Assembly: GCA_963965975.1 (NCBI GenBank)
Contig: OZ014412.1
Span: forward strand, 7,440,708 to 7,504,707
DNA: 64,000 nucleotides
Source: Xestospongia bergquistia
Lineage: Eukaryota > Porifera > Demospongiae > Haplosclerida > Petrosiidae
Direction of reading: 5' to 3'
Every line of letters begins with the position of its first letter. Within the stretch, counting starts at the first letter, position 1. Shown piece by piece: positions 23,117 through 64,000 of the stretch. A program made the translations under genes and the position numbers. Below the pieces are notes generated by a model that worked only from the letters and a program-made list of their open reading frames with translations, made no database searches and was not told the DNA's origin.

Positions 23117-26100
23117 ATGATGTGGCCATTGTTTGCAGTGAGTATAGTGACTTGTATTGTTGGAAGTAAGTATGATTGTATTTGTGATCATCTCAAAGAT
23201 CTACTAAGTATATAATTGATTATTGTGTAAACTAACATTACTTGTTTAAAGATGTAATTTTAGTGTGTCTCTCCTTGGCAGGTCAAGGGACTCTTACATT
23301 CACAACTCATCCAGCTAGTCATGAAGTAATAGTGGGCGAATCTATAACATTAACATGTATTGTATCAGATCCTACTGCTGAGATCTATTGGCTATATGAG
23401 TATGTAGCTATTGAGTCTTCAAATACTGACTATACAATCAATGGTGGTAGTTTGACCATCAGTAATTTTACTATTTCAAAATCAGGACATTATCAGTGTG
23501 CTACCAGTAATGACAATAGAGTGACAGTCCTACTATCACATATTGCTTTATTAACTGCATTTAGTAAGTTGAGTTTTAATACACTTTCTCAAACGGTGGA
23601 AATTTAAATAGAATCATAATATGTAGATTTCTGTCATCAGAACACTTGTACTTCCATGTATTATACAAATATTGTACTAAAGACACTCTTCAGACATCAA
23701 ACCAATTAGATCTGATATTTGTACACTCCTTCATTGAAGCAATATAGTCTATATCATATTGTATATGATGTTTGTGTCTAGTAATGTAAAGCTTGAAATT
23801 CTAACATAAGACATGTGTTGCAATGTCAGCAAAGAGGCAGGCAAATATCAGTTATAGTTTTGGTTTATTCTTATAATTAAATAATGGTCATGAATGGTTG
23901 TTTTTCTTTCAATGTATAACAAAATTATATATCAGCTTTTTATAGTATAAAGGACATATACTAAAATTTTATCTGATGTAACATATTATGATATTCTTTG
24001 TTTAGCTCAACGTACCTACTCCATGGAACCTCAAGACTATACATCTTATCTAGTATTCACCACACTATCTGACAATACTATACAACCAGTTGGTCGTACT
24101 GCAGTACCATTTGAGTGTGAACTAGGAAAACCTTTTTATGCTACTGTTCGACCAATCATTACATGGGAAGTTCATTTCTCAAATGGTGAAATGACTGAAA
24201 TTGTCAATAGTCAGCCATTAGATGTCATATATGGGACACAATTCAACAATAAGGGTTATTTACAAATACATTTTCCAAATGTTACTCAACACAATTATAC
24301 CAAAGTAAGATGCATTTCTACAAATCCTTTAAGCCAACAAGAAAAGATCTATAGTAACTGGGCTAGAGTAATAATATTGGGTAAGTTTAAAGTAAACTGT
24401 TTATGTATATATATTTAATGAATAAAAATTGATTGGTTGATTTAACCAATATATCAATATACAGATTATATGTAGCAAATGTCTTTGATGTAAAAAGGAA
24501 ACATAAGTTTGTTTTGTTTATTTATAGCTTATTATGGAAAGAAATAATATTTTTATTTATTCTTAAGCTAAACAAGATGTTGGGTCACTTCAATGTATTT
24601 TGTAGGGATTCATCCAATCAAATGATGTCTATGAGTCAGTTAAATGATGACCTATTTGTTTTTAAAATATTATAATCCAAACTTTGATCATAATTATTAT
24701 TAATCTTTAATAAAATAAAATAAATAATTTTAAGGTTAATACGATGGCAGTTTTGATTGTATTACTTTTAAAATAAATAGATCATTTTAACTGATTCATA
24801 GACAATATTTGTTTGTATGCATCCTTACAAAATATGTTGAAGTAAATAAATCAATTCATCAATAACAGCCCTGGACCATTTAGCATCTTATTTGTCAAAT
24901 AAAATCATTTTCATTACATAGTATATATAAGTAGCAATCAAAACAGACTTATGTTTAGTTTTGTTACATTCAACCTGTACAACCATGTATTGGTTAAATC
25001 ATCCAATCAATTTGACTAGTTATATACATATAGTTAGTTCTCTTTGTTGAGGTAGACATAAGTCAGACTAATAAGAGTCTAATTACATTTTTTCACAGCT
25101 AGCATTAAACATCACATTAAAAACTTCATGAGTACAATTAAAATTAAAGATATTGGTCAAACTTTACTAGACAAAATTACAAAAGTTGATGGAGTGACCA
25201 CTATTCATCTTTACCAAAGATTTGGCCTTACTTTGTATGACTGATAACTACTACCATATAAATATATTAATACATTAAAGAATGTTTTGGATTTGTTAAT
25301 GAAAAAAATATGAAAAATTATTACTTTATTATGAACTTTATAATTGTCTGCTCTTGAATATTATTATTATCATTCTTTCTGAATTAGATGAGATATTTCC
25401 AGTGACACAAGCAACATTTTTATATGATGCCATTGTTCAGAAACCTCCACCAAATGTATGGGACGAGGGTCTAGGAACTGGAACAATCCTGCCATGTCTT
25501 AAAGATATTGGTAATTTTAGTGTGCTAACTCCTGGGTGAGTTAATTCTAAGATATTTATAATATTATGCTTTTAATTAGGTGGAGACTTGGATTTGTTAC
25601 ATTCTACAATGTTATTAATTTGAGACCAACAAGACCTGATGCTGCATTTATAGGATATACTAACATGTGGTTAAATCTAACTAACAATAATTTAGTGGGT
25701 GAAACTATAATTTGTCTTGTATTTAAACAGTCAGGAACTAGTGGGAGTACTACTAAAATTATACAACGTATGTCTTTTGTTACATATGCAGTTTAAATAT
25801 CTTTTGTTTTTTCAGGTCCAGCTCATGTTCTACCTCCATTTAAAGTTGACCAAGTAACTAAAGTGGCTTATACTGAAGCACCTATCACGTTGTCCTTTGT
25901 GGTAACTGGTGGTGGAAATATTGAGTCAGTTCAATGGTGGAATGATGGTGTCCTAGTTACTAGTAATGGAAGTTTAGTAAAGATGGTATTGTATTGACCA
26001 ATGGAGAGCGAATTCAGCGAGCTAATACCTCCCTACTAGTCATCTTCTCAATGAATGTCAATGATATTGGATATTATGAGTGTCATCCAGAAAATAGTAT

Positions 26101-26776
26101 ATATACTTTCAACTATTCAACAACTGAAGTTGGCATCAAAAGTGAGTCTATGCTAGGATAAATGGATAGGCAGATAGATAGATGAATGGACAAAGAGATA
26201 GATAGATGAATGGACAAACAGACAGATAAATGAATGGACAGGTAGATAGATGAATGGGCAGACAGATAGATAGATGAATGGATGAATGGGTAGGTAGATG
26301 GAAAAATGGATTGATAGTATTCATTCCAAGAAGACACTTTGTAGTTTCTGTTATGATAAATTAGAAGTTAGCTTTAATTTGAAAGACGTTTTAATTACTG
26401 CTTCACTTTTAAGAAACTGTAGAATTCATTAATTAAGAATTCCATAAGTTACTATATCATTGTAATAGCAAACCTGTGCAAGCTCCATTATATGTGAGCT
26501 GATGAATTTAGTGATGTGGTACTTGTGTTAGAATTAATTACAATTACTAATTACTCTACATATATTGTTGAGCTAAATGCTCTATACTTAGATTAGTAAT
26601 AAATCCATATAAAGTACTTGTCTTAACTTATTCATGCTAGTATACATATCTTGGTATAACACTTGTCCTTCTGTTTGTAGGAGTAATATCAACACAGACA
26701 TAATTTATTGTGATGGAATGTTATTATAGTGTGATTGTGATATGTCTAGAGTAATTTTTGAATTTGTAGTTATGTT

Positions 26777-26818
<42 letters not shown>

Positions 26819-27754
26819 AAACCTTTCTTAACATCTTTTCTCATTCAGTACCACTTCCTGTCAATGGATCAACTCGACAGACAATTTCCAGTCTAGTTCC
26901 TGTAGCTCCTAGTGGATATAATATTATTCCACCTAATCCTAAGATCATCTTAACTTCATCTGGAGATTTAATGACTATGATATTAAGTCCTTGTGACTCT
27001 GGAACCTACACTATTACATCTCCTGATTTCAATGGAACTATCATTATTGAACTGACAGTATTTGGTTAGTGAAAAGTAAACATCAACTACATTGCACTTT
27101 CACTTATGACTTTTTTAATGGTAGTTTCCTCTATGTTTCACATTTTCTAAGCGATGATTCAGATCCTGGTACTTTGAGATTTTATTTAATTCATCCATTT
27201 TTCAATCTTCCATAAATCATAATCATGTATTACATAATATTCTTAATATAATAGTTTGTTTATGTAAGTACATCAATTTGATAGTATTACTTTTGTTTAG
27301 ACTCTATAACTAATCACATGTCAATGAAAAATTCATCATGTGTTTATGTCTGTAGTACTAATACAATGTCTACAGGTAATTAAACAATCACAAATCAGTT
27401 TGTTTTATCAGTTTCTGTTATAGATTACCCATTAAGTAATGATGATTTTAACATATTGTTAGGTAAACATCATGTGAGTAATGTTTGTAACTCAATGACA
27501 ATCTTATTCTTATAGTTGCACTTCCATTTGTCACTGCTATATTATCATCAGTTATAACTGCTATTATTACATCAGTGATATGTTGGTTTTGCATAAGAAG
27601 GAAACTAGGCTCACCAAAAGAGACTACCTCTCATATCTATGACTTACCTAACATTCCAATATATGACACTCCTAATATTAATGTTGCTGATGTTAGCAAA
27701 ACAACAACACTGGAACTAAAAGATAATGTTGCTTATGGAGAAATAAGTCATTGA
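23117..27754 (+). CDS. Ig1: Ig-type single-pass receptor, shrunken copy, possibly a pseudogene
   Basis: Exons by comparison with Ig2: 23117-23165 (signal peptide MMWPLFAVSIVTCIVG), 23282-23563 (Ig), 24006-24380 (Ig-like), 25388-25535 plus 25580-25767 (Ig-like), 25816-about 26141 (fused, see below), 26849-27064 (Ig-like), 27301-27375 and 27424-27462 (stalk), 27516-27754 (TM and tail, stop TGA). Two deletions relative to Ig2: one of about 540 bp joins the front of one Ig exon to the back of the next near 25975, giving a frameshift and a TGA at 25995-25997; another of almost 5 kb removes the whole Ig pair array near 27085. Because flanking exons are phase 1, skipping the fused exon (25767 to 26849) would restore a frame with four Ig-like domains. 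The tail has YDLP, YDTP and VAYGEI. An AATAAA lies at 27804. Confidence 0.7.
26161..26310. repeat. Tetranucleotide-based minisatellite (Ig1 copy)
   Basis: Imperfect gata/gaat/gaca repeats (agatagatgaatggacaaac-like units) in the intron after the fused Ig exon. A shorter version of the same array lies at 43083-43205 in Ig2. Confidence 0.85.
26786..26815. repeat. CT microsatellite in the pyrimidine tract before an Ig exon (Ig1)
   Basis: An uninterrupted run of about 15 ct units, some 35 bp before the acceptor at 26848. The same tract, slightly longer, is at 43682-43714 in Ig2. Length variation here could affect splicing of the next exon. Confidence 0.85.
27090..27240 (+). pseudogene. Relic Ig and stalk fragments downstream of the Ig1 deletion
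   Basis: 27105-27190 matches 48970-49050 and, more distantly, the second exon of a gene A Ig domain (17060-17150; shared phrase gattcagatcctggtactttgaga). It has no open exon context. The next part corresponds to the region just before the first Ser/Thr stalk exon of Ig2 but has lost that exon's acceptor. Confidence 0.6.
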
Positions 27755-27959: not shown

Positions 27960-28165
27960 TTAAATGTGATCTTCAGCTTACACAAACAACTACATCACAA
28001 CTTCTCATGACATAGCTACTAATGAAAACAAAATTGCTCTTGAAGATGCACTAAATTTTATTATTGTGTCTTGTGTTGTCTATTACTTCCTCCAACTTCA
28101 GTGATTATACAGTTATTGTGTTGAGTTTAGCTAATAGATGATTTAGATGGTGAGTAAAGTTTTTG
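27960..28165 (+). pseudogene. Relic Calx-beta exon
   Basis: A degenerate copy of the second exon of the first Calx-beta domain (compare 10200-10402, 31260-31467 and 50160-50345): phrases acttctcatgaca, gctcttgaagatgcactaaatttta and ttgtgttgagttt-gctaa survive. The frame is destroyed by small indels. It is the only visible remnant here of a Calx-beta pseudogene that is longer after Ig2 (50160-51405). Confidence 0.75.
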
Positions 28166-28303: not shown

Positions 28304-29663
28304 CAGGGGTGGAGACAGGTACTGAAAAGTGGGGGGGCCAAGTGCTTAGTGAAGAATCAGATAGATGTAAATGAAAATCTTATTTTAAAAAAATTCACTA
28401 AAAATTACCAAAGTATTTAACCCGTTCATCTGTTGCATGGATAAATTCTTGTGCAATGGATGCTAAGTCTAAATCATCCTTTAAATCTTTGTGGACATGC
28501 AGCAGGAAGCAATTGTTCAATGTTTTTTCAGTCATCTTAGAGCGTGTGTAAGTCTTATTCCTTTTATTTGTACTAAAAGACCTTGTCTTCGAACTTTTTG
28601 AGACTGTTGCAGTTGAGAATTCAACTGTGCTGCTATAGTTTGTCTTCCACAAGCCATCCATTTAGACAATGCTTCCATGTGAGCATGTGAACCTTCGTGC
28701 AATTTGAATTTTTCAATAGCCTTTTTCCAGTTCTGAAACCCAGTTTCAGTGAATGCCTTTTCACCCATTTTACTGAAAGTAAGCAGTTTGTGTTTTACAG
28801 CGAAACGGCAATAAAGGCAGAATGCTTTCCCAACTGTCACACAGATAGTAAGCCAACGAAACTGTTTATATACCATTGTGATTGAAACTTTCTCTTATCG
28901 GTTGCCAGTGTATCTAATGTGTGTTTATCATTAGGCTGAAATGGTTTTTCAAAACTGAATCAACACTCGGCTGTACATGTACTACTACTATCTTCTTTAC
29001 CTCCATCATGGATTATGGAATCACTGAATCCATGGCTCTCAGTATTTGGAGTCTCTTCATTGTCATTGGGAAGATTGTAGGCAGTGCTCACGTTAATGTC
29101 ATCCACCTGATCATGAAGTTCATCATCATGAAGATTGAGTTGCTGTTCACCACTCAGGTTTTGGATTTCGGATGCAGGAGAGCCATAGTTGTCTTCATTG
29201 TCCTCAGATCTTATCCTCTTGCCAGACCAGACAGAAAGCAAACTTTGTTGTCTTTGCCTTTTTACCATTATATCTCTCAGTCATTCTTTAACTTAGCCAG
29301 CTGCCTTTTAATAGCCACATGTGATAGCATAATGTATAGTGTAAATGGTTCATCCCATGAGATCACTTTGACCAATTATTAAATAATGTCATACCCTCTT
29401 AACAATTGTCACACTTTGCTTCTTTGAGCAATTAACTTTAGCATACCAAATTGTGAATGTCATTGATTCTTATACAGCTGGTTGATTGTAACGTTTGATT
29501 TATCAAATTATTTTTCACCCAGTTTGTTAGTGAGGAGTGGAATTCATCATGCATACTTTTATATCACACAGTCAAAAAACAAACAGTAAGGGGGCAGAGC
29601 CCCCCCACTTTCAAAAGTGGGGGGGCTCCAGCCCCCCCTGCCCCCCCTAGTTCTCCACCACTG
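28304..29663 (-). mobile_element. hAT-like DNA transposon, internally deleted, with terminal inverted repeats
   Basis: The left end begins CAGGGGTGGAG and the right end, on the other strand, CAGTGGTGGAG, so the ends are inverted; both are followed by G-runs containing an aaagtgggggggc block. The interior encodes transposase remnants on the minus strand. Flanking 8-mers (atcaaagg left, aaaggggt right) are only loosely alike, so a target-site duplication is not proven. The element is about 1.36 kb, too short for a full hAT transposase. It sits between the Ig1 gene and gene B and is absent from the matching place after Ig2, so it inserted after the block duplicated. Confidence 0.75.
28398..29268 (-). 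pseudogene. Broken hAT transposase N-terminus (TTF-type zinc finger)
   Basis: The ATG at 29268 opens a polar, acidic N-terminus (MVKRQRQQSLLSVW...) to a stop near 28960. A second frame, 28876-28532, carries the TTF-type zinc finger (FCLYCRFA ... ETGFQNWKKAIEKF-x-HEGSHAHMEA) typical of ZMYM1-like hAT proteins. A third, ending at 28398, gives CFLLHVHKDLKDD ... FIHATDERVKYFGNF. Frameshifts separate the three. The DUF4371 catalytic part and the dimerisation domain are missing, so it could not be active by itself. Confidence 0.75.
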
Positions 29664-30304
29664 AAAGGGGTGTAGGTTTTGAGGAAGCCTTGTCAAGATA
29701 CATGGCTACATAAACCTAATCTATTGTTGTTTATTCATTTGTTTAATATATTAGACTCTTAGTGCAGTAAAACATTTTGTCTAATAGCAATGTTACTAAT
29801 GACAAAATGCCAACATGATGTTATTGGAAATGTTTAAACATACACAGTTTTTTTGTCTTGGTAGGTGATCTATTAACTATATGATAGTCTATGGTATCAC
29901 AATTAGAAAGAGGAAAGCATTCATTTGGAAATTAAAGGCTAGCCTTACTGTCTGATAGACACTACTGACATTGATATTGGTGATGTTACTACAATTACAA
30001 TACAATATTGCTTATGAAGGAATATGTTGAATGATTCACATATTACTAAAAGAAATCATTGTTTATTGCTTATGGAAAACATTATTATTAAAGTCTAAAT
30101 ATAATATTATTCACTAGTCTAATGCTATTAGTGTTTGTAAATACATAATTCAACTTGATTTATTAAGTGTCTGATCTTTTCTATATAATGTTTATTGTTA
30201 TTAAATATATATTTATATGTAACTATTATCAATAAAATAATAGTAAACACAAGTTAGTCCATTAACAATGTAACCAATGACAAAGAAGTCAACAAGAAGT
30301 TTAG
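29664..30304. repeat. Non-coding segment shared with 51440-51975
   Basis: From about 29790 to the gene B 5' flank this sequence is nearly identical to 51480-51975 after Ig2 (phrases atgccaacatgatgttattggaaatg and tatcacaattagaaagaggaaag in both). It holds a small tail-like relic (gacattgatatt-gtgatgttactacaa-tacaatatt-cttatgaagg) resembling the ADVSKTTT...NVAYGE part of the receptor tail, with stops. No gene. Confidence 0.6.
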
Positions 30305-30483
30305 TACTAAAATACCTGCTTTGTTAGTTTTGCTGAGTGACCCATTAACTAGATAAATAGTCTAGTGTTAAAACAGCAGTACAATCAGACAATAGAATAA
30401 CAATTTGGAAGCATCAGATTCACTATTTGGACTGAACTGCTTTAAGAAGAGAACTTGCTAAAGGCTACTACCGTCTTGTTAAG
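30305..30483 (+). promoter_or_regulatory. Conserved 5' flank of gene B
   Basis: Shares the agtacaatcagacaat and ggactgaactgctttaagaagagaac blocks with the gene A flank and with the three stuttered copies at 51990-52975. It lies immediately before the ATG at 30484. Confidence 0.5.
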
Positions 30484-33400
30484 ATGACTAATAGAGCAAC
30501 TTTCTTATTGTTCATTCTCTTGCCTACAACAGGTATGCAGGCCCCATTTAATATTATTATATATATATATAAGATTGTTATATTAACTTTTACTTTACCA
30601 GTACTAGCCCAGCAAATTGCAACATTCAATGAAGATGATATGGTACAATGTTTCAATGATGTTACATCATGTAATGTTAACAGTAATGTAATGATGATAA
30701 CTGCTGGACAATGTTGTAATACAACTGGAGGATCTTCTAGACATGTGAGAGTTGTTTCTGGTAATCAAACTTTTTGTAGCAGTTGTTTTGGTGAGTTTAT
30801 TATTATAATAAATATAAACTATGTCAAAAGAATCAATTTACTGAAATAATTTAGTTATAATATGTATAGTAATACTTAAATTTAATTAAAGCAAAAACGT
30901 AATATTTCCATAGAATAATAAAGTGCAAGTAATACTAGACAATATTGTAATATTAGACAATTTAAATCAAAAACTTTCAAGTTTTGTTTGTTTCATTTTG
31001 TCAATACATATTATTAATCAGTAAATAAATCATTAATATTCTATATTGTGTAGTTGTTACATTCAGTCAGGGATCATATTTCTTTGGACCTGATAGCAAA
31101 GGAAAAACTGTTCCTTTTCCAATAACTGTTTCAGATTTTTCTGGTACTGGTAACTATAATGTTAGACTCAGGGTTAAGAATAACCCAGACCCATTACCAA
31201 GTGAGTTCTTGTTGCAGTAAAATGTTATGGTTGACCCTGTAGATGGTGGACGTTTTATCAGTAGATTTTCTAATAATATTGTTCAGTATACCCCAACAAC
31301 TACATCACACAACTTCTCTATGACATTAGTTACTAGTGGAAACCAGGTTGCTCTTGAAGATGCACTAAATTTTACTCTTGTGCTATCTGTTATTTCCTCC
31401 ACCTTCACCAGTGGTTTTGCAGTTATTGTATTGAGTTCAGTTAATATTATAATAGATGATTTAGATGGTGAGTAAATCAGATAGTTAGGTGTTGTTGTAT
31501 ATATAACAATATTGATTATAGTCCTGAATAATAGAACCTTACTTAAATTTTTTTTCTCCCTTAATCAGAATTTTTAAGCAATACTAATGTTGTTATTTCT
31601 TTTATTAGTTATCAGGATAAGATTGGATGAAGAACAACTTAATGAAGCTCAAGAATCTTCTGGACGTGTACCTGTTGTAATTAATCGTGATACTATTTCA
31701 TTTGTTACAACATTTAATGTGACCATAACTACAAGTGAGTGTAGTGGAGCAACATTATCTCCAGATCAATCAATAGCAACACCTAATATTGGTATGATAA
31801 TAATATTATGAATCAGTGATAATTTTAGCTGTTACTAAATTATATTGATGGTCAGACAGTTACAAAGACATTTGTAGCCTTTAGTACAGATACTGAAAGA
31901 ATATTTGAATTTACAATCATGGATGATAAAACTGTTGAATTGGATGAACTCTTTGATCTTGTTATAACTGTTAGTGATCCTAGAATAATTATAGAAAAAA
32001 GCGATTGTTATGCTGTAATCTCTGATGATGAAAGTATGGGTATATATTATAATGTGCGTATACTATATCTTGTTACTCTATAGAATTCAGTATTGGTTTT
32101 AACCAAACAGAGTACACAATATATGAAGGTGAAAATATAACATTGACTGTGATAGAGTATCAAGGATTCACTGGTGGTTTAGCACATGGTGGAGTGCCTG
32201 AAACTCGTCTACCTGGATCTTTCCTATTATTTTATGATATAGACAGCTCAGCTGATGAAAGTTAGTATCATTTATAGAAAAAATATTATCTCATATTATC
32301 ACTATAGATGTTGACTTTATAATCAACAAAACCCTTCCTCGATTCACATACTCTCCTAATAACACTATTAACAGTATTTCTGTACCATTACATAGTCTTA
32401 ACGATAGTGTTCTTGAGAGATCTGAAATAGCTGTCTTAGAAATAAGACTTGATGTAACTGGTCATTTTATTCAGATTCACAATAGCATTGTTCAACGTGC
32501 AATTATCACTATTTTGGATTGTACTGGTAAAATTTGCATTACATAATGAAATTAACATAATATTGTATGGTAATATTAAGATATATGATAGTGCTGTAAA
32601 ACTTCTCATTATTGAGAGTATTGCTAAAAAGTTAAATGTTAACATACAGAAAATTCCTATTACACACAGTATTTGCAAATTGTCTAAAGTACAGAATACT
32701 CCATATTTTGTGTAACAAACACTTTTTGTTGTCCATAATAAAAAAAATACTTCTCATAATTGAAAGTGGAGTGCATGATTGTAGTAAAATAGCATTAACT
32801 CCATTGAGCATATCCAAGTAGCAAATGTTTACTTCTAATTAAAGGACATGTCCTCAACCAGGACGACTTTAGCCTGATTCCAATGAACTCAACAAAAAGA
32901 GTATTGTTCCACTGTATATAAGTACATGCATATTTATGTATGCATCCACATGTGGATCAAGAGAATTAGAAGCAAGTAAAAATCAAATTCAGAATCATAG
33001 CTCTAGAAAGCAAGTGATAGTATAATGTATTAACATGATTCCATCTTTCTATATATATATATAGTGGCCACAGTGAAGTTGTCTGCTAGTAAGTATAATA
33101 CATCAGAGTCAGTTGGAGGAGTACAGGTGTGTGCAGACTTAATTAATGCAACTCTGCAATCTGGTCAAAGTTTGCAAGTAAATTTTGTTCTTAATAATGG
33201 ATCAGCATTGCAAAATCGTAAGAGTTGGACAACACTATTTTTTATTGAGACACTCTTTTTTGTAGAGGATTATTCTTATTTACCTTTTCTACCTACCTAT
33301 TTTAATTTTATTGGACCCAATACACAAGTATGTATTACTATCACAATTGTGGATGACAACATCAGAGAACATTTACTTGAATTCTTCAATATAACATTAC

Positions 33401-38800: not shown

Positions 38801-39376
38801 AATAATAACTCATTGCATATTATAAATATCTATATTGAATACTATTGCCACAGGATATGCTGTTTTAGCTAATAACACCAAATTTTTCCATGTCTGTCAA
38901 CATTGTTGCTTGTATTTGTTATAGATAATGTTGTCATATCAGAAGGAAGCCATTATGATACATAATGCTGTTAAGTTATTTAAAACTGAATCAACTATTT
39001 TTTGTTCTTGTGCTATCACAAAGCACACTAGAACTAACCTGATGATATACCTCAGTGCTAATATATGATAACCATTGATATAATTATCTGTCAATTAAGC
39101 ATTTTTTTGAAAATTTTAGTCCTGAAATTTTTATTATTTAAACCATAAATCTAATATTGTTCAATAATGATTATATACAGCTCAATATCTCAGAATTTAC
39201 TGAATATTACATAATTATTATTATGTAATATCTGTTTTTATAATTGAAATTTACATTGCATGTTTGGTCAAGTATTTAACTAACTTTATATACACTTTTC
39301 ATCATTTATATATTAAATCAACAGATTTCATGCATTTTCTATATTATTGAGTGACCAGGTTAGGACTTTATTTCTT
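35885..39376. other. Intergenic region between gene B and Ig2 (duplicated at 58422-61960)
   Basis: No supported gene over 3.5 kb. The whole stretch is matched, with scattered substitutions and small indels, by 58422-61960 downstream of gene C. Open frames at 36243-36482 (plus; no ATG, begins GTG) and 38505-38759 (minus) persist in both copies, but neither has a recognisable domain. The end of the stretch leads into the Ig2 leader. Confidence 0.6.
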
Positions 39377-49935: not shown

Positions 49936-50149
49936 CTCATTATGTTGTATGTGACTTCTTTATTCTTACATTGAACATTTTAGTAATAAGAATTTGTTCA
50001 GTTATGCATACATTTATCATTGGTCTAATGAACAAGAAACATGTCTATAACATTGAGCTTTGTGTCTAAAATATATTATGTATGTAGACTTTATTATCAT
50101 ATTAAATAGTTTAGCAGAAAAGTTTTCATTACAATGGTTTTTAAATGTG

Positions 50150-51405: not shown

Positions 51406-51975
51406 TGTGTTTACTCAGAATAGTGTGATTATTGAGTTAATACAGAGTTGTCAATGTACATAGCTGAATACTAATAAGAAAATGCCAACATGATGTTATT
51501 GGAAATGTTTAAACATACACAGTTTGTTTGTCTTGGGTGAGTGATCTATTAACTGTATGATAGTCTATGGTATCACAATTAGAAAGAGGAAAGCATTCAT
51601 TTGGGAATTAAAGGCTAGCCTTACTGTCTGATAGACACTACTGACATTGATATTGCTGATGTTACTACAATTGCAATACAATATTGTTTATGAAGGTATA
51701 TGTTGAATGATTTACATAAAACTAAAAGAAATCATTGTTTATTGCTTATGGAAAACATTATTATTAAAGTCTAAATATAATATTATTCACTAGTCTAATG
51801 CTATTAGTGTTTGTAAATACATAATTCAACTTGATTTATTAAGTGTCTGATCTTTTCTATATAATGTTTATTGTTATTAAATATATATTTATATGTAACT
51901 ATTATCAATAAAATAATAGTAAATACAAGTTAGGCTATTAACAATGTAACGAATGACAAAGAAGTCTACAAGAAC
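51406..51975. repeat. Non-coding segment shared with the region before gene B
   Basis: Nearly identical to 29790-30290. It lacks the hAT element found at 28304-29663 in the other copy, which shows the ancestral state. No coding content. Confidence 0.65.
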
Positions 51976-52975
51976 TTTAGTACCTAAAATACCTGCTTTG
52001 TTAGTTTTGCTGAGTGATCCATTAACTAGATAAATAGTCTAGTGTTAAAACAGCAGTACAATCAGACAATAGAAAAACAATTTAGAAGCATCAGATTCAC
52101 TATCTGGACTGAAATGCTTTAAGAAGAGAACTTGCTAAAGGCTACTACCGTCTTGTTAAAATGACTATAATAGAGCAATTTTCTTATTGTTCATTCTCTT
52201 GCCTACAACAGGTATGCAGGCCCCATTTAATATTATTATATATATATATATAAGATTGTTATATTAACTTTTACTTTACCAGTACTAGCCCAGCAAATTG
52301 CAACATTGTTATTAAATGTATAATATGTGTAGCTATTATCAAAAAATAATAGTAAACACAAGTTAGGCCATTAACAATGTAATCAATGACAAAGAAGTCT
52401 ACAAGAAGTTTAGTACCTAAAATACCTGCTTTGTTAGTTTTGCTGAGTGACCTATTAACTAGATAAATAGTCTAGTATGAAAACAACAGTACAATCAGAC
52501 AATAGAATAACAATTTAGAAGCATCAGATTCACTATCTGGACTGAACTGCTTTAAGAAGAGAACCCTACTACCGTCTTGTTAAGATGACTAATAGAGCAA
52601 CTTTCTTATTGTTCATTCTCTTGCCTACAACAGGTATGCAGGCCCCATTTAATAATATTATATATATATATATAAGATTGTTATATTAACTTTTACTTTA
52701 CCAGTACTAGCCCAGGAAATTGCAACATTGTTATTAAATGTATAATATATGTAGCTATTATCAAAAAATAATAGTAAACACAAGTTAGGCCATTAACAAT
52801 GTAATCAATGACAAAGAAGTCTACAAGAAGTTTAGTACCTAAAATACCTGCTTTGTTAGTTTTGCTGAGTGACCTATTAACTAGATAAATAGTCTAGTAT
52901 GAAAACAGCAGTACAATTAGACAATAGAATAACATATTTGGAAGCATCAGATTCACTAACCGGACTGAACTTACT
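51880..52975 (+). repeat. Stuttered 5' end of a Calx-beta gene: two full copies and a third partial copy
   Basis: A unit of about 425 bp holding the family's 5' flank, first coding exon, first intron and the first bases of exon 2 is repeated head to tail: about 51885-52307, 52308-52727, then 52728-52975 (flank only). Each full copy runs to ...ccagtactagcccag-aaattgcaacattg and then jumps back to ttattaaatgtataatat. First exons: copy 1 at 52161 has an extra base (ATGACTATAATAGAG for ATGACTAATAGAG), which shifts its frame; copy 2 at 52585 is intact. Neither copy has an exon 2 body of its own. They could act as alternative promoters or first exons for gene C. Confidence 0.75.
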
Positions 52976-53084
52976 AAAAGCTGTAGTGTGAGCTATAGAA
53001 CTCACACTTACAATATCACAGATATATTTGTCTGGACAGAACTAACTGTCTGCCTCAACTAGATCTCTTTATATAACAACAATA

Positions 53085-56000
53085 ATGCATGAGAGTTCAC
53101 AAAGATATAGTAACTATATTAACTATGTTATATTAACTTTTACTTTACCAGCACTAGCCCAGGCTACACTCAATGAAGATGATATAGTACAATGTTTCAA
53201 TGATGAGTCATCATGTAGTGCTTACAGTAATGTAATGATGATAACTGCTGGACAATGTTGTAATTTAGCTGGAGGATCTTCTAGACATGTGAGAGTTGTT
53301 TCTGGTAATCAAACTTTTTGTAGCAGTTGTTTTGGTGAGTTTATTATTATAATAAATATAAACTATGTCAAAAGAGTCAATTTACTGAAATAATTTAGTT
53401 ATAATATGTATAATAATACTTAAATTTAATTAAAGCAAAAACGTAATATTTCCATAGAATAATAAAGTGCAAGTAATAGTAAGCAATATTGTAATATTAA
53501 ACAATTTAACATAAACTCAAAAACTTTCAAGTTTTGTTTGTTTCATTTTGTCAATACATATTATTAATCATTAAATAAATCATTAATATTCTATATTGTG
53601 TAGTTGTTACATTCAGTCAGGGATCATATTTCTTTGGACCTGAAAACAGAGGAGAAACTGTTCCTTTTACAATAACTCTTTCATATTTCTCTGGTGTTGG
53701 TAACTATAATGTTAGACTCAGAGTTAAGAATAACCCAGACCCATTACCAAGTGAGCTCTTGTTGCAGTAAAATGTTATGGTTGACCCTGTAGATGGTGGA
53801 CGTTTTATCAGTATATTTTCTAATAATATTGTTCAGTATACACCAGCAAATACATCACACAACTTCTCTATGACATTAGCTACTAGTGGAAACCAGGTTG
53901 CTCTTGAAGATGCACTAAATTTTACTCTTGTGCTATCTGTTATTTCCTCCACCTTCACCAGTGGTTTTGCAGTTATTGTATTGAGTTCAGCTAATATTAT
54001 AATAGATGATTTAGATGGTGAGTAAATCAGATAGTTACATGTACACGTGTTGTTGCATATGATAACAATATTGATTATAGTCCTGAATAATAGAACCTTA
54101 CTTAAATTTCTATTTTTTCTCCTTATTAATCAAGCAATACTAATATTGTTATTTCTTTTATTAGTTATCAGGATAAGATTTGATGAAGGACAACTTAATG
54201 AAGCTCAAGAATCTTCTGGACGTGTACCTGTTGTAATTAATCGTGATACTATTTCATTTGCTACAACATTTAATGTGACTATAACTACAAGAGAGTATAG
54301 TGGAGCAACATTGTCTCCAGACCAATCAATAGCAACACCTAATATTGGTATGATAATAATATTATGAATCAGTGATAATTTTAGCTGTTACTAGATTATA
54401 TTGATGATCAGACAGTTACAAAGACATTTGTAGCCTTTAGTACAGATACTGAAAGAAAATTTGAATTTACAATCATAAATGATAAAACTGTTGAATTGGA
54501 TGAATTCTTTGATCTTGTTATAACTGTTCGTGATCCTAGAATAATTATAGAAAAAAGCGATTGTTATGCTGTAATCTCTGATGATGAAAGTATGGCTATA
54601 TATTATAATGTGTGTATACTATATCTTGTTACTCTATAGAATTCAGTATTGGTTTTAACCAAACAGAGTACACAATATATGAAAGTGAAAATATAACATT
54701 GACTGTGATGGAGTATCAAGGAATCATTGGTGGCTTAGCACATGGTGGAGTGCCTGAAACTCGTCTACCTGGATCTTTCCTATTATTTTTTGATATAGAC
54801 AGTTCAGCTGATGAAAGTTAGTATCATTTATGGAAGAACATTATCTCATATTATCACTATAGACGTTGACTTTACAATCAACAAAACCCTTCCTCAATTC
54901 ACATACTCTCCTAATAACACTATTAACAGTATTTCTGTACCATTACATAGTCTTAATGGTAGTGTTCTTGAGAGATCTGAAATAGCTGTCTTAGAAATAA
55001 GACTTGATGTAACTGGTCATTTTATTCAGATTCACAATAGCATTGTTCAACGTGTAATTATCACTATTTTGGATTGTACTGGTAAAATTTGCATTACATA
55101 ATAAAATTAATAGATTTTATGGTAATATTAAGATATATGATAGTGCTGTAAAAATTCTCATTATTGAGAGTATTGCTAAAAAGTTAAATGTTAACATACA
55201 GAAAATTCCTATTACACACAGTATTTGCAAATTGTCTAAAGTACAGAATCCTCCATATTTTGCATAACAAACACTTTTTGTTGTCCATAATAAAAAAAAA
55301 ATACTTCTCATAATTGAAAGTGGAGTGCATGATTGTAGTAAAATAGCATTAACTCCATTGAGCATATCTAAGTAGCAAATGTTTACTTCTAATTAAAGGA
55401 CATGTCCTCAACCAGGACGACTTTAGCCTGATTCCAATGAACTCAACAAAAGAGTATTGTTCCACTGTATATAAATACATGTATATTTATGTATGCATAC
55501 ATATGTGGATCAAGAGAATTAGAAGCAAGTAAAAATCAAATTCAGAATCATAGCTCTAGAAAGCAAGTGATAGTATAATGTATTAACATGATTCCATCTT
55601 TCTATATATATATATAGTGGCCACAGTGAAGTTGTCTGCTAGTAAGTATAATACATCAGAGTCAGTTGGAGGAGTACAGGTGTGTGCAGACTTAATTAAT
55701 GCAACTCTGCAATCTGGTCAAAGTTTGCAAGTAAATTTTGTTCTTAATAATGGATCAGCATTGCAAAATTGTAAGAGTTGGACAACACTATTTTTTATTG
55801 AGACACTCTTTTTTGTAGAGGATTATTCTTATTTACCTTTTCTACCTACCTATTTTAATTTTATTGGACCCAATACACAAGTATGTGTTACTATCACAAT
55901 TATGGTTGACAACATCAGAGAACATTTACTTGAGTTCTTCAATATAACATTACTACCTTATGATCCAATTACAAGTCCTACTCCAGGTTATACAGGACTA

Positions 56001-58421
56001 ACTGTAGATACAACACCTTCAAGTATTTGTATAGAAGATGATGATGGTAAGTTGATTTGATCAATTTGTCAGTCACATTTTAACACTTGAACAGAAGCTG
56101 AGGTTATATTTGAGCGATCATATGTCACATTCTCTGAAGCTGATGGTAACCAATATATTTATATTATACTAGATGGAAGACAATTATCAAACAATAAAGT
56201 TGTGGAAGTTTTTGATATATTAAAACAAGTAATCACTTGCTAGAAGTCAATATAATAATATTCAGAGACCTTGATAAGTTTCCTTTCTTTTTCAGATCAA
56301 ACATTTGGAACATTTACAATTGTTAGTGGTACATCTCCTCAAAGACAAGCTGTTGTTTTTCCTGTTGTCAACAATAAAATAGCCCTGGAATTGGATAAAT
56401 TGACACAACTTGGTTTAAAAAATTACAGTATACTTCCAGTAGATAATCCATTCACTATGAATGTAACAGTTGTGGATGATGATGGTAAATGAAAAATAGA
56501 TACTAGAGCATTGTAAAATAAATTTATTTACTTCAATTTATAATTAAACTTACAATTCTATTGTATTTCTTTTTAGTTGTTACTGTGAAATTTAGTCAGT
56601 CCCTATACTCTTACAATGAAGATCATGGTGTAGTATCAGATATTACTGTTGTATTATCTAATGAAATTGGTCAAGATCTTAATGTAACTGTATCTGGAGG
56701 TTATAAATGTTTAATATTGTGACTATAATGTAATGTTACCTTAGGACCTGGTTGTCAACTTTCAATGGTTGAAATATCTGGTGTTAATATAAGTCAAATT
56801 GTGACATTTACAGCTCATGGAATACAATCTCAAAGACTACCTAGTTTTACTATCATCAATGATACTGTTGCCCTGGAGACCATAGAACAATACAATCTTT
56901 CTTTTGGTAACCCTTCCATAACTAATGGTGTCACACTAGGTCCAGATACAACAATACAAATTACAGATGATGATGGTAATGACTATAACAATACCAGTAA
57001 ATACTGTGGAGCAGTACATATTGAATTTAATACATGTTTTTATTGAAGAGAACTTGTTCTATATACGTTCTTATAGTACAACTTAAGTCATTAGCATAGT
57101 TTAACTCATTCTGAGCATATATGTACCCTATCATCATTGTCATTATTATAATTATATTTTTTAGTTATTACTGTCAATTTTGGTCGAAGTCTGTATTCCT
57201 ACAGTGAAAATCATGGAGTAGTATCAGATATTACTATTATATTAAGTACTGCAATAGCTCAAAGTCTTACTGTCACTGTATCAGGAGGTAATGATAAATA
57301 TACTATAACTGTTTAATATCTTGTTACTTTAGGACCTGGTAATCAACCTTTATCAGTTGAAATATCTGGTGTTAAAGTGAATGAAGCTATCAAATTTACA
57401 GCACTAGGAGCACAGTCTCAAAAACTACCTAATTTTTTTATCACCAATGATAGTGTTGCCTTTGAGACTATTGAACAGTATAATCTTTCTTTTAACAATC
57501 CATCTCTAACCAATGGTATTATACTAGGTCCTGGTACAATAATTATAATTATAGATGATGATGGTAAGAAATTATATCTTATTTCAAATACAGAATAAAT
57601 TTTTTTAATTTCAATTCATATATATCTATCATCCTTCAACTAATCCATTCACAATTATGTGTTCCATAAAATTCTTCCAAAGAATTTAATAATGTCTCAA
57701 CAACAGGATCATTAATCACATCTACAGGTATTATATAGTATAGTTCAATATAACTTGTAGGTAGTTACCTTTTGCAAAGACTCTACTGCTATATTTTTGT
57801 AAAGACTCTGCTGTCATTACACCAACAAGACCACCACTATTATCAGCTAATGCTAATGTGACTAGTACAATGCCTACAGGTAATATTTTGTTTATGTAAG
57901 TATATACATTTGACAATATTAGTTTTTTTGTGACTAAAATATATTAAACTTGACAATATTATTTCTTAATTTTTAGACTCTAAAACTATGTCAATGAAAA
58001 TTTCATCATGTCTTTATGTCACTAGTATTAATACAATTTGTACAGGTAGCTAAACAATCACAAATCAGTTTGTTTTATTAGTTTCTGTTATAGATTACCC
58101 ATTAAGTAATGATGATACTAACATATTATTAGGTAAACATCATGTGAGTAATGTTTGTAAGTCAATGACAATCTTATTGTTATAGTTGCACTTCCAGTAG
58201 TCACTGCTATATTATCATCAGTTATAACTGCTATTATTACATCAGTGATATGTTGGTTTAGCATAAGAAGGAAACTAGGCTCACCAAAAGAGACTACCTC
58301 TCATATCTATGATGTTCCTAACATTTCAATATATGACACTACTGATATTAATACTGCTGATGTTAGCAAAACAACAACACTGGAACTAAAAGAAAATGTT
58401 GCTTATGGAATAAGTCACTAA
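53085..58421 (+). CDS. Gene C: Calx-beta single-pass receptor with new 5' exon and two lesions
   Basis: Exons: 53085-53334, 53604-53750, 53793-54017, 54165-54347, 54395-54595, 54640-54816, 54863-55081, 55618-55770, 55819-56046, 56098-56228, 56296-56484, 56577-56699, 56745-56975, 57165-57287, 57333-57563, 57683-57727, 57805-57879, 57977-58045, 58094-58132, 58186-58421. Same plan as gene B: Cys-rich module, seven Calx-beta domains, stalk, TM, tail (IYDVP, IYDTT, NVAYGISH). Differences: the first exon reads straight from an ATG at 53085 through former intron sequence; the exon ending 54595 has lost its donor (GGGTATAT to GGCTATAT); the exon 56098-56228 carries 2 extra bases (gatatattaaa for gatattaaa), giving a stop in the next exon. 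Both damaged exons are phase 1-1 and could be skipped in frame. It may be functional by skipping, or a recent pseudogene. Confidence 0.72.
55270..55445. repeat. Intronic repeat (gene C copy)
   Basis: Same element and same intron as in genes A and B; nearly identical to 32710-32890. Confidence 0.55.
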
Positions 58422-61400
58422 CTTATTATTTTGTACATGTCCTTGTATTAAACATTTTAGTAATAAGAATTTGGTTATTTAATGTATCATTTCTCACTGC
58501 ATTGTACAATATTGAGTTTTGTATCTACAATATATTAAATATGTAGACATTATCATATTAATTGTAAATAGTTGATCAGAAAAGAAATTATAAATATAAT
58601 ATACTCGCTCATTCTCTCTGCCTGATACAATAATTATATGTGGGAATAATTGTTCGTCAGTGATATCGTTATTTTGATTACCCTTTTGTTCCCTTAGGAA
58701 TCTTAGCAGTTTCTTCTAACATTAGTTATTGGACGTTTTATCAAGATACTTGAAGTTCCAGGTATTGCACAGTACTAGTGAACACGTTTCTAATTTCCTG
58801 TTCATTGGTGTTGGTGGCAGGTGTTGTAAATAACTTGTTTATAATAACGTCAATTTCTTTTGACTCATTAAACTTATTTTATAGGCAGTTATACTTTCTG
58901 GGAGTTCAGGTAGCTTCATTATTTGCTACAACAGGTCTTCTCTGCACTACTGTGAGTGTTGTATGTGAACTTGCAGGGTTTATAATTGTCTTTGACTATC
59001 ACATGTTCTTTCATTAGAACTCTATTTGAAGTACTAGTTTTGATAACTTCTTCTCTTATATAACACCAGGTTAGCTAGTGATTGTTGTGTAAAAATGATT
59101 GTGCTGAAGCAGTGGCACATCTAAGCCACTTTAATGTAAGATTATGTAGTTGTTCTAATAATAGTGACGTGGGAACATTGACAGGTGGAATAATTAATAT
59201 ATTGGTTGTTTTAATGATTCTTTTCACTTGGGTTACATGCATGGATCCTCCCACCTAACACACATAAAAAACATATAGACAACATGCATACAGTATGTAC
59301 GTTTTGATTATTATAATTACTATGGAACTGCACAGTTAATTTGTGTATAAAACAAATATTTCCATTTATGTAGCATGTTATATATAAACTTCATAGTAAG
59401 TCTTCAAGCATGCACACAAGAAATTTTTCTACTTACATTGTACAAAACTAAACTTATGTAAATGTGTTGATAAACCATTGTAAAACAATGTAGAAATCAT
59501 ATATCACATGCATTACTACTATTGGTTGCTTTTAGCTAATAATTGTGTCTACATGCTCCTGTCCCAATATCCCAATCTCACTCATACCTCCTCAACAGGA
59601 AATCTAGCAACAGATTTCATAGGTGCTATGAGTGAAATTATGATAACAGAGAAGTGACGAGTGTCCAATCCCTCATTTATATATTTGAGTATAACTGTCA
59701 ATTCCATAGTACATTTAATGTATACATTTAGAGTTCAGTAGATTCATTGGTAAAATAAGTTGATTGTTTAATCAATTCACGAACATTTTGGTTGTATGCA
59801 GCTCTGCAAACTATATTGAATTCAAAGTATATGCATAAACTTCATACTAACATCTCTGCTCCAGCATATCATCATTATCATAGTTCTATCAATTATCTAC
59901 ACAAACTGTCAATTCCATAGTACATTAATGTATTACTAATGAAAACTCTACATGATGTTTACTTTAATGTATCAAATGATTTGCTACATACATACAACCT
60001 ACACTATAATTATTATAGCTGCTATGATATGAGAAGAAACAAACCAACATTATGAACAGTATGTTTGAGGCACTCCTTTATTGAGCATGTGTATAATTTA
60101 TACACTGAGGTTGAGGTAGATACATGATTTATATACATTCTTCAGAAGGTATATAAGTTTTTTTATTCACCTTAAATGGAGTGGTCAATTACACTTAAAA
60201 TAACATTTTGTCATTTCAACCATTGTCTTTGTTACTAGAATTTCATCAATACAATGTGAGCCCAATATTGAATTACCACAAAGCCAAAACTAACTTAACT
60301 CAGTATGTATAGCACCAACTAGAAGCCAAAAAGTTGTCTTCATAGTTTATGTCCAATAATTAAAACTATGAGGGAGAGGCAGGTACTATTTCAATTGAAA
60401 TAACTGGGTTTGGTTGAGTTGAAATATTATCTGCTTATATATAGCTTTAATTGAAGCCATAATTCAATTGCTATAGCAAAGTGGGTGTAAAAGCAATGTG
60501 GTTGCAGATGTAACTAGTTGGCTTTATGCATATTGAGTTACAATAGTATTGGTGTTGTAGCAATTTAGAATTGGGTTTACATCATATTGAGTTACAATAG
60601 TATTGGTGTTGTAGCAATTTAGAATTGGGTTTACATCATATTGATGAAACTGTGGTAACAAAGACCTCAGTTAAAATGCCAAAATGTTTTTTTCAGTGAT
60701 AAGGCATTGCATGGTATGAATAATGTTTACATTTAATAAAGTGGTATATATTATTGAATACACTATAAAGCAACTATATGCTATGAGTTTTATGTAAGTG
60801 TAACATCATAATTTCTACATTGTTATATTCAATGAAGGAGTGTACACTTGTCAAAGTTTTGGTTTCTTTGTTATCATAATTTTACTCATAGCAGTTATAA
60901 CAGAAAATCTATTGGAACTGTAGCTGTTGTAACCTGGCCGAGATAGATTCAACATATAACAACAAATATATAATAATCAAGAGAGAGTCAACATGAACAA
61001 AAACACTAAAAACACTCCTCATTCAAAACGTGCTCACACAATACATACATGTGCTCATCTGGAATATTCTGGAATATATAAATATTCATACAGTATTACC
61101 ATATTCATAATTATCACAGTAGCAAATAGTCACATTATTGTTTAAAGCATTTACATACAGTTTAGAATCTATAAAAGTAACTGACAAGTCATTATAATAC
61201 CGATGTGAGTGTATAGTTGCCCAAAATGTGGTTACAATAAGAATTGATCTTGTAGTGAAATATTGTATTAAATTTAAATTTTTAGGAAGAAAAATTACTG
61301 GCAAGATCTCCAATTTAAATAAAGGATGATATAGTAACAATATGAGATATCTTAATTCCATTAACAAATACACAATTATATAACAATAACTCATTGCATA

Positions 61401-61961
61401 TTATAAATGTCTATATTGAATACTGTTGTCACAGGATATCCTGTTTTAGCTAATAGCACCAAATTTTTCCATGTCTGTCAACGTTGTTGCATTGTATTTG
61501 TTATAGATAATGTTGTCATATCAGAAGGAAGCCATTATGATACATAATGCTGTTAAGTTATTTAAAACTGTATCAACTATTCTTTGTTATTGTGCTATCA
61601 CAAAGCACACTGGAACTAACCTGATGAAATATCTCCATGCTAATATATGATAACCAATGATATAACTACCTGTCAATTAAACATTTTTTGAAAATTTTAG
61701 TCCTGAAATTTTCATTATTTAAACCATAAATCCAACATTGTTCAATAATGATTATATACAGCTCAATATCTCAGAATTTACTGAATATTACATAATTACT
61801 ATTATGTAATATCTGTTTTTGTAATTGAAAATTTACATTGCATGTTTGGTCAAATATTTAACTAACTTTATATACACTTTTGATCATTTATATATTAAAT
61901 CAACAGATTTCATGCATTTTCTATATTATTGAATGACCAGGTTAGGACTTTATTTCTATTA
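58422..61961. other. Intergenic region between gene C and Ig3
   Basis: Second copy of 35885-39376, with no supported gene. Differences include a 54-bp tandem duplication at 60531-60638 and several small indels. The minus-strand frame at 61086-61394 is the counterpart of 38505-38759. Confidence 0.6.
60531..60638. repeat. 54-bp tandem duplication
   Basis: Two perfect head-to-tail copies starting tattgagttacaatagtatt; the homologous place in the other block (about 37990-38050) has one copy. Confidence 0.9.
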
Positions 61962-62029
61962 AAAATTAACAAGGGTTCTCAGACTCCAAAAGTTTTGGAC
62001 CCAGTGTGACAACTTTGGTGTCTGCCAAT
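61962..62029 (+). promoter_or_regulatory. Conserved 5' leader of Ig3
   Basis: Third copy of the leader before Ig1 and Ig2. One base of the ttcttcag phrase is missing here (ttctcag). Confidence 0.45.
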
Positions 62030-64000
62030 ATGATGTGGCCATTGTTTGCAGTGAGTATAGTGACTTGTATTGTTGGAAGTAAGTTTGATTGTATTTGTGA
62101 TCATCTCAAAGATCTACTAAGTACAGAATTGATTATTACCCAGAATGTATGAACTAAAATTATCTCTTTAAAGATGTAATTTTAGTGTCTCTCTCCTTGG
62201 CAGGTCAAGGGACTCTTACATTCACAACTCATCCAGCTAGTCATGAAGTAGTACTAGGGGGATCTGTAACAATAACATGTAATGTATCAGATCCTAATGC
62301 AGAGATCTATTGGCTATATGAGGATGTAGCCATTGACTCTTCAAATACTGACTACACAATTAGTGGTAGCAGTTTGATGATCAGTAATTTCACTATTTCA
62401 AAATCAGGACATTATCGGTGTGCTACCAGTAATGACAATAGAGTGACAGTCCTCCTATCACATATTGCTTTATTAACTGCATTTAGTAAGTTGAGTTTTA
62501 ATACACTTTCTCAAATGGTGGAAATTTAAATAGAATCATAATGTATAGATTTCTGTCATCAGAACACTTGTACTTCCATGTATTATACAAATATTGTACT
62601 AAAGACACTTTTCAGACATCAAACCAATTAGATCTGATATTTGTACACTCCTTCATTGAAACAATGTAGTGTATAGTATATTGTATATGATGTTTACATC
62701 TAGTAATGTAAAGTTATTCACTCAAAACTTTAACACATGTGTAGCAATTTCAATGAAGATGAAGGCAAATATTAGTAATAGTTTTGTTTTGTTCTTATAA
62801 TTAATTATATAGATAATGGCCATAAATGGTTGTTTTTACTATCAATGTATAATAAAAATTATATATCAGCTTTTTATAATATAAAGGACATATACTAAAA
62901 TTTGTCTGATGTAACACATTATGATATTATTTCTTTAGCTCAATGTACCTACTTTATGGAACCTCAAGACTTTACATCTTATCGAGTTCTTACCACACTA
63001 TCTGACAATACTGTACAACCAGTTGGTCGTGCTGCAGTACCGTTTGAATGTGAACTAGGAAAACCTTTTTATGCTACTGTTCGACCAAACATTACATGGG
63101 AAGTTCATTTCTCAAATGGTGAAATGACTGAAATTGTCAACAGTCACCCATTAGATGTTATATATGGAATACAATTCAACAATAAGGGTTATTTGCAAAT
63201 ACATTTTCCAAATGTTAGTCAACACAATGATACCAAAGTAAGATGCATTTCTACAAATCCTTTAAGCCAACAAGAAAAGATCTATAGTAACTGGGCTAGA
63301 GTAATAATATTGGGTAAGTTTAAAGTAAACTGTTTATGTATATATATTTGGTGAATAAAAATTGATTAGTTGATTTAACCAATATATGGATATACAGATT
63401 ATATGTAGCAAATATCTTTGATGTAAAAAGGAAACATAAGTTTGTTCTGTTTATGTATAGCTTATTATGGAAAGAAATAATATTCTTATTTATTCTTAAG
63501 CTAAACAAGATGTTGGGTCACTTCAATGTATTTTGTAGGGATTCATGAAAGCAATGATGTCTATGAATCAGTTAAATGATGACCTATTCATTTTTAAAGT
63601 AATATAATCCAAACTTTGATCATAAGTATTATTAATCTTTAATAAAATTTAAAAAATAATTTTTAAGGTTAAAACAATGGCAGTTTGATTGTATTACTTT
63701 TAAAATAAATATATCATTTTAACTGATTCATAGACAGTGTTTGTTTTGCATGCATCCCTACAAAAGATATTGAAGTAAATAAATTAATTCATCAAAAACA
63801 GTCCTGGCCCAGTTAGCATCTTATTTGTCAATTAAAATCATTTCACTACATAGTATATATAAGTAGCTATCAAAACAGACTTATGTTTAGTTTTGTTACA
63901 TTCAACCTGTACAACCATGTATTGGTTAAATCATCCAATCAGTTTGACTAGTTATATACATATAGTTAGTTCTCTTTGTTGAGGTAGACACAAGTCAGAC
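62030..64000 (+). CDS. Ig3: Ig-type receptor, 5' part only (cut by the right edge)
   Basis: Exons in view: 62030-62078 (signal peptide, MMWPLFAVSIVTCIVG), 62204-62485 (Ig with Cys pair and Trp) and 62939-63313 (Ig-like, FECELG ... VRCISTN). All three have the same lengths as in Ig2 (49, 282, 375 nt), intact GT-AG borders and no stop. The following exon should lie a few hundred bases past the edge, judging from Ig2. From 63314 to 64000 the sequence is intron. The ectodomain is closer to Ig2 than to Ig1 in the first Ig exon. Confidence 0.85.

Follow-up and report, generated by a model that had tools for sequence, protein, structure and literature searches.

Immunoglobulin-type and Calx-type genes of a tandem cluster in the sponge Xestospongia bergquistia share one stalk-transmembrane-tail cassette

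Two classes of genes with unrelated ectodomains, one made of immunoglobulin (Ig) domains and the other of Calx-type repeats, end in the same stalk, transmembrane (TM) and cytoplasmic-tail exons within a tandem cluster of the sponge Xestospongia bergquistia. The window, meaning the whole stretch of 64,000 nucleotides analysed here (C2:7440708-7504707), comes from a genome of 146.46 Mb in 21 contigs; 40 kb before it and 100 kb after it were also read, and coordinates below 1 or above 64000 continue the window numbering into these flanks. Genes Ig1, B, Ig2, C and Ig3 all lie on its plus strand (Table 1), and across the genome TM-tail exons of the same family stand directly behind Ig, Calx-type and Ig+FN3 exons. 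On balance, we read Ig1, Ig2, B and C as present or former cell-surface receptors of type I, each crossing the membrane once, with one membrane and signalling end in common.

A sequence-only reading of this stretch had claimed that the last exons of Ig1, Ig2, B and C are almost identical in length, phase and sequence, which holds. The modelled last stalk exon measures 75 nt in Ig1 and Ig2 and 69 nt in B and C, the DYP exon 51 nt in all four genes, and the TM-tail exon 239 nt in Ig1 and Ig2 and 236 nt in B and C, all cassette junctions being in phase 1. DNA identity between Ig and Calx genes, introns included, is far above chance, at 83.9% over 669 columns for Ig1 and B, 84.3% over 668 for Ig1 and C, 81.7% over 827 for Ig2 and B, and 82.2% over 824 for Ig2 and C. 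The three-exon cassette of the earlier reading is indeed shared, but the homologous block is longer, comprising up to four stalk exons, the DYP exon, the TM-tail exon and the 3' untranslated region (3'UTR). Ig2 49342-50123 aligns to B 35255-36048 through introns and 3'UTR, and Ig2 49086-50130 aligns to 94938-95940, where the downstream Calx gene G ends, with 79.3% identity in 1,059 columns. Because Ig exons lie upstream of the Ig2 block and a Calx remnant downstream, the block has clear edges. The stalk exons are small phase-1 modules, with a modelled number of one in Ig1 and D, three in B and C, and four in Ig2 and G; one of them is common to Ig2 (49227-49304) and G (95072-95149), and alignment found no DNA matching it in B or C.

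Gene structures are modelled from DNA, through an exon-chaining finder written for the purpose and applied to nine genes. Because it was trained on exons of B, Ig1 and Ig2, its scores are not independent, and the open model of B is support for that gene, not proof. This model runs open from signal peptide to stop over 22 exons (1,044 amino acids), with all 21 introns in phase 1 whether the phase bonus is on or off; the longest open model in 20 first-order Markov controls of the region has 185 amino acids. The model of Ig2 is also open (34 exons, 2,092 amino acids); of its 33 introns 30 are in phase 1, and with the phase bonus off the figure is 28 of 32. Doubtful finder output includes the splitting of the B open frame 33034-33501 and two small Ig2 exons (40719-40732 and 41508-41530). 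A strong hydrophobic segment lies close to the C terminus in the models of Ig1, Ig2, B, C, D and G and is missing from that of Ig3; weaker segments also occur inside the ectodomain in the models of B, C, D and G.

That the ectodomains are unrelated, as had been stated, agrees with Pfam, which finds Ig domains in Ig2 (within the first 847 residues, the part scanned) and Calx-beta in B (PF03160, E 3.3e-13, above cut-off). In the first 645 residues of gene K the Calx part falls under the Pfam cut-off, so the repeats are called divergent Calx-type here. They are preceded by an N-terminal cysteine (Cys) module (DDMVQCFND..AGQCCN.., at 30602-30790 and in paralogues), which has no Pfam match in A and B and by eye is present also in Amphimedon protein P0001. 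A search for outside relatives of B, using words of its first 500 residues and scoring the best 8,000 candidates, gave one Amphimedon queenslandica Calx-beta protein (29% identity over 39% of B); a further search gave one unnamed open reading frame (ORF; 64% identity over 29%), and the end of B had no outside relative among 356 candidates at E up to 1.

Table 1. Features of the cluster in window coordinates; models and alignments are as described in the text.
Feature	Position	Strand	Basis
Gene A: signal peptide, Cys module, Calx-type ectodomain, Ig + EGF, GPS, seven-transmembrane (7TM)	8290-21519	+	model, Pfam
Gene Ig1: Ig ectodomain and cassette, apparently damaged	23117-27754	+	gene model
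Ig1 cassette: stalk 27301-27375; DYP 27412-27462; TM-tail 27516-27754	27301-27754	+	model, alignment
Calx gene remnant behind Ig1 cassette	27972-28158	+	78-79% to 31282-31476 and 53832-54026
Gene B: signal peptide, Cys module, Calx-type repeats, stalk, TM, tail	30484-35884	+	gene model, Pfam
B cassette: stalk 35144-35188, 35267-35341, 35440-35508; DYP 35545-35595; TM-tail 35649-35884	35144-35884	+	
Gene Ig2: signal peptide, Ig array of two-exon units, stalk, TM, tail	39452-49935	+	gene model, Pfam
Ig2 cassette block, homologous to Calx gene ends, introns and 3'UTR included	49086-50130	+	DNA alignment
Exons of Ig2 block	49116-49169, 49227-49304, 49354-49428, 49482-49556, 49593-49643, 49697-49935	+	
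Partial Calx gene remnant immediately 3' of Ig2 cassette	50153-51369	+	78-79%, ~1.25 kb, to 53832-55034 and 10234-11455
Additional partial copies of Calx promoter and first-exon region	51469-52729	+	96% and 93% to parts of 29794-30626
Gene C: Calx-type and cassette, 2-bp insertion in one exon	52585-58421	+	gene model
C cassette: stalk 57683-57727, 57805-57879, 57977-58045; DYP 58082-58132; TM-tail 58186-58421	57683-58421	+	
Gene Ig3: extends past window edge; TM and tail deleted downstream	62030-64000	+	gene model, DNA alignment
Duplicated Calx+Ig unit, copy 1	30194-41443	+	93.98%, 11,385 columns
Duplicated Calx+Ig unit, copy 2	52727-64000 and beyond	+	as copy 1

How did Ig and Calx genes come to alternate along one strand? 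The single orientation stands, but the alternation is the product of tandem duplication of one Calx+Ig unit (94% identity, the match extending past the window edge) and not of repeated swapping; repeated independent alternation was rejected on this ground. A tree of eight cassettes, with H1 and H2 as its root, joins Ig1 and Ig2 with D and G (93.5/90) and leaves B and C outside. Since the Ig cassettes are nested among Calx cassettes, the Ig genes probably took theirs from a Calx gene, perhaps in a single event. Under HKY+G (the best-fit model being TPM2u+F), the topology with all four Calx cassettes united was disfavoured by the approximately unbiased (AU) test (p=0.0275), and the topology placing Ig with B and C was not rejected (AU 0.116). 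Synonymous divergence (dS) is 0.068 between the B and Ig2 cassettes (5.5/85 sites), 0.153 between those of B and D, and 0.20 between the B and D ectodomains.

The TM-tail exon belongs to a family with 91 distinct places found in three genome searches, 88 on contig C2, two on C1 and one on C6, the last a short match that may be chance; because weak matches are included (to E 1, 0.1 and 0.01), the count is rough. Thirty loci were fetched and 28 tails of at least 55 amino acids kept, L033 and L044 being shorter. Homology of the tail alone was examined on sequences shortened by their first 26 residues, which hold most of the TM segment, with a hidden Markov model (HMM) built from the eight local tails: all 20 distant tails exceed the 99th percentile of shuffles, eight exceed the maximum of 3,915 scored shuffles (4,000 made), and hhalign of local against distant tails gives E 9e-9. 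In 26 of the 28 tails the TM exon has a phase-1 AG close to its start, a raw count uncorrected for chance. An FN3 HMM, seeded with four Pfam-confirmed exons from tail-family loci and L053, has a match at most 1.5 kb upstream at 18 of 22 non-local loci, three of which, with a stretch overlapping a fourth, supplied seeds, and at one of eight local loci. About 3 kb upstream of an Ig+FN3 family receptor, L053 also carries a Kunitz-type domain (PF00014, 2.2e-9, at ~3025-3115).

The sole local locus with FN3 upstream is the mosaic gene H, at 100451-101907 (C2:7541158-7542614). Its Ig+FN3 part has 78-80% DNA identity to L040 and L039 (C2:5.955 and 5.980 Mb; 724 and 610 columns), whereas its tail shares 51-56% identity with four cassettes of this cluster and finds no counterpart in L040 or L039 by tblastn at E 1e-3. 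Against a simple swap in H stand its second FN3 part, just 42-47% like L040/L039, and L033, a member of the FN3 cluster with a degenerate H-type tail. Upstream of both C1 tails (L032 and L041; C1:2.063 and 2.077 Mb) lies a Cys-rich open frame, which in L041 has a signal-peptide-like start and no Pfam match; the tail family perhaps also extends under a Cys-rich ectodomain. The proposal that ectodomains were swapped onto a common end is strengthened by these settings: FN3 ectodomains elsewhere on the contig, one inside the cluster, and the Cys-rich frame on C1.

What kind of tail is shared? The motifs considered include the immunoreceptor tyrosine-based switch motif (ITSM) and sorting and PTB readings of tyrosine motifs; classical and non-classical definitions of the corresponding inhibitory motif (ITIM) follow PMC12447643, and the core Y-x-x-I/L/V follows PMC12065747. 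All 28 tails keep N-x-x-Y. Motifs of ITIM/ITSM type occur in 19 of them, against a shuffle mean of 6.0 and maximum of 14 in 1,000 shuffles that ignore kinship among the tails, and [SIVLT]xYxx[ILV] is found in Ig1 and Ig2 (VAYGEI) and in 17 of 20 distant tails. The tails of B and C are one residue shorter than those of Ig1 and Ig2, which puts S at the +3 position; those of D and G stop after YGK, and those of H1 and H2 have AYEGG. As Ig1 and Ig2 keep ITIM-type VAYGEI and local Calx copies have no hydrophobic residue at +3, signalling may differ between the two classes. YxxP, a Crk/Nck type motif, was rejected as a family motif, being present in all eight local tails with no enrichment over the 28. 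The canonical activation motif (ITAM), which has a shorter tyrosine spacing, was rejected too, the tail tyrosines being 23 residues apart in the common distant tail. SH2 domains give 81 matches in the genome, and tandem runs of SH2-domain frames at C6:1.62-1.70 Mb and C3:1.266-1.284 Mb possibly represent an expanded signalling family.

The Calx ectodomain appears to be carried on a second membrane end, since the models of genes A and K join it to 7TM exons. In gene A, Pfam matches GPS (PF01825, 4.6e-16), Ig_3 (9.8e-35) and Calx-beta (3.3e-8), and 7tm_2 (PF00002) on its ORFs at 20308-20625 and 20758-21444 (3.7e-7 and 3.1e-9), so that it has both the GPS motif and the secretin-type 7TM region of an adhesion G protein-coupled receptor (GPCR); the model omits part of the 7TM exons. 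DNA identity of A to B is 84% over 1.6 kb and 83% over 2.0 kb. The K model is a chain of exons as in gene A, J (109-119 kb) shows single-exon matches in gene A order, and from the models A and K each appear to be one gene. Receptors of this Calx-Ig-EGF-GPS-7TM type lie around the single-TM genes (gene A, 125201-134660 and ~109500-119500), and a 7TM exon is found near -31100. A 335-bp repeat, 91% identical between 4184-4518 and 18638-18971, has one copy within gene A. Elsewhere in the window, 28532-29382, between Ig1 and B, has open frames on both strands and is transposon-like by eye, its two minus-strand frames having no Pfam match above cut-off, and an SRCR domain exon lies at 161-439 on the minus strand (PF00530, 1.5e-12).

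We lean towards the reading that the cassette is a common end for phosphotyrosine docking, to which different ectodomains become joined by recombination. An Ig ectodomain would have acquired the end of a Calx gene through ectopic recombination within phase-1 introns, as symmetric phase-1 exons can recombine with the frame kept (PMC8001218); subsequent tandem duplication would have made the alternating Calx/Ig array. Binding of a ligand by the ectodomain would lead to phosphorylation of tail tyrosines (IYD.P, N-x-A-Y-G-x-I/V), and the phosphorylated tails would dock SH2 or PTB proteins, bringing different sensors into one pathway. Because of the analogy with Alr and FcoR, considered below, the most likely use of such receptors would be recognition of self or microbe. 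The fullest form of this reading is tentative, possible rather than likely: a combinatorial system with one phosphotyrosine tail as the constant output of a family spread along the chromosome, ectodomains (Ig arrays, Calx-type chains, Ig+FN3, Cys-rich) exchanged through phase-1 introns and Calx also on 7TM ends, supplying candidate sponge self or microbe receptors in which Ig members (ITIM kept) and Calx members (ITIM lost) would give opposite signals.

Several observations weigh against a functional docking end acquired in this way. Three of the five Ig or Calx single-TM genes starting in the window look damaged, B and Ig2 being the two whose models look intact. The full ITIM-type motif is present in only two of eight tails of the cluster, and in none of the six besides Ig1 and Ig2; YxxP occurs in 12 of 28 tails (shuffle mean 7.1, maximum 15). 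The direction of cassette transfer depends on the AU test, the Kishino-Hasegawa and Shimodaira-Hasegawa tests giving p=0.052 for united Calx cassettes. The ratio of nonsynonymous to synonymous divergence (dN/dS) of the cassette is 0.79, 0.93 and 1.17 in three pairs with few sites, and for B/C it is 1.64 in TM-tail and 0 in stalk, with one synonymous change each. By these estimates, the cassette evolves no more slowly than the ectodomains.

Could the cluster instead be an ordinary set of adhesion genes under birth and death, built by one old exon shuffling and tandem duplication, with tail tyrosines serving trafficking through YxxPhi or NxxY sorting? We regard this as rather unlikely, although a single duplicated unit does account for the alternation, all 20 distant tails have YxxPhi, every one of the 28 tails has NxxY, and most dN/dS comparisons are below 1. 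The ratio is 0.58-0.70 for the older Calx ectodomain pairs A/K, B/K, B/D and D/G (742-927 codons), which on this measure are under constraint, 0.56 and 0.63 for Ig N-terminal parts, and, in A/K, 1.12 for the Ig-EGF part, 0.51 for the GAIN-7TM part and 0.37 for the 7TM exon; judged by such values, the proteins of the cluster evolve fast. However, the tail family also stands behind FN3, in the mosaic gene H and behind the Cys-rich frame of contig C1, which makes it likely that joining happened more than once, and the NxxY tyrosine is kept though YxxPhi is absent in six of eight local tails.

An array in decay, alike through segmental duplication and with most copies yielding no protein, is improbable. 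Lesions of the expected kind do occur: the frame apparently breaks near 25975, where two Ig exons of Ig1 are fused, 2 bp inserted into an exon of C probably shift the frame, and Ig3, traced beyond the window, lacks ~655 bp of Ig2 holding the last stalk exons, TM and tail. The finder's models of Ig1 and C are nonetheless open through other splice sites, so damage in both is not certain. Calx remnants behind the Ig cassettes, a stop in some match at 17 of the 91 family places and a dN/dS of 0.97 (0.87 with another mapping) for the young pair B/C also point to decay, whereas the open models of B and Ig2 and the lower ratios of the older Calx pairs point away from it. That Ig and Calx exons form one transcription unit, with alternative ectodomains or last exons common by splicing, is most improbable: all exons share a strand, nearly all are in phase 1, so that most cross-gene junctions would keep frame, and Ig3 without its own TM has a cassette downstream in gene D, but each of Ig1, B, Ig2, C and Ig3 has a separate signal-peptide exon, which disfavours a single gene, and all but Ig3 have their own cassette and stop.

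Among known systems, sponge aggregation factors, to which the Calx-beta genes had been linked, share Calx-beta domains (PF03160 in B) and gene clustering with the genes described here. They are a secreted proteoglycan core without TM and have VWD or Wreath domains, whereas the models of B, C, D and G end in TM and cytoplasmic tail. With B and C modelled as membrane proteins, Calx-beta the one domain that Pfam gave for B, and none of the 59 genome Calx-beta matches listed on C2, the link is weak and aggregation-factor identity is not supported. VWD and Wreath do not appear in the Pfam scan of B, though Pfam may have no Wreath model. Other Calx-beta clusters, at C8:355-374 kb, C13:1.06-1.10 Mb, C12:6.82-6.85 Mb, C4:1.63-1.64 Mb and C15:5.34-5.35 Mb, are candidates for true aggregation factors; relatives of the window's Calx repeat lie at C12:6.80-6.81 Mb. 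Calx domains also occur in ADGRV1, and gene A, with GPS and 7tm_2 beneath Ig and Calx-type domains, resembles sponge adhesion GPCRs; unlike in these and ADGRV1, the Calx ectodomain is here common to single-TM genes of the same cluster. Amphimedon adhesion GPCRs bear Ig, FN3, EGF and SRCR domains according to the accessible text of PMC4302439, and the word 'Calx' is absent from its main text.

Closer parallels come from clustered receptors with tyrosine tails. The vertebrate paired receptors CD300A/C are clustered and exchange parts by gene conversion, but they keep related ectodomains alike over different tails (PMC12447643, accessible text), whereas here unrelated ectodomains share one tail. 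Hydractinia Alr genes encode clustered single-pass Ig-superfamily receptors with many copies and pseudogenes (PMC11067881) and tails with ITIM/ITAM-type motifs (PMC12065747), as far as the accessible text of both sources goes. Ig2, by model and Pfam, has the same single-pass TM and Ig-type ectodomain within a cluster; the likeness does not extend family-wide, since the tail family has Calx-type and FN3 members and perhaps a Cys-rich one, and Alr is described in that text as Ig superfamily only. Botryllus fester co-receptors (FcoR) are type I proteins with Ig domains and a tail ITIM, hemITAM or Y-x-x-I/L/V; their exons between TM and ectodomain are alternatively spliced, where here stalk exon number differs between genes, and the accessible part of PMC12065747 describes one ectodomain plan (Ig, sushi) and mentions no Calx or FN3 versions. 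No description of a shared tail in sponges was found in the literature searched, so far as its text was accessible. The parts are thus of known kinds, and one tyrosine tail beneath several unrelated ectodomains is, as far as these searches show, new. It would be an instance of class 1-1 module exon shuffling, TM-tail module included, still readable in DNA. Clustered tyrosine-tailed receptors are already known in cnidarian and ascidian allorecognition; candidate allorecognition proteins are not conserved among sponges, cnidarians and ascidians, and the same signalling pathways recur by convergence in systems from cnidarians to mammals (PMC12065747). If our reading is true, the family would provide concrete receptor candidates for sponge grafting and aggregation, and its similar tail logic would extend that convergence to Porifera.

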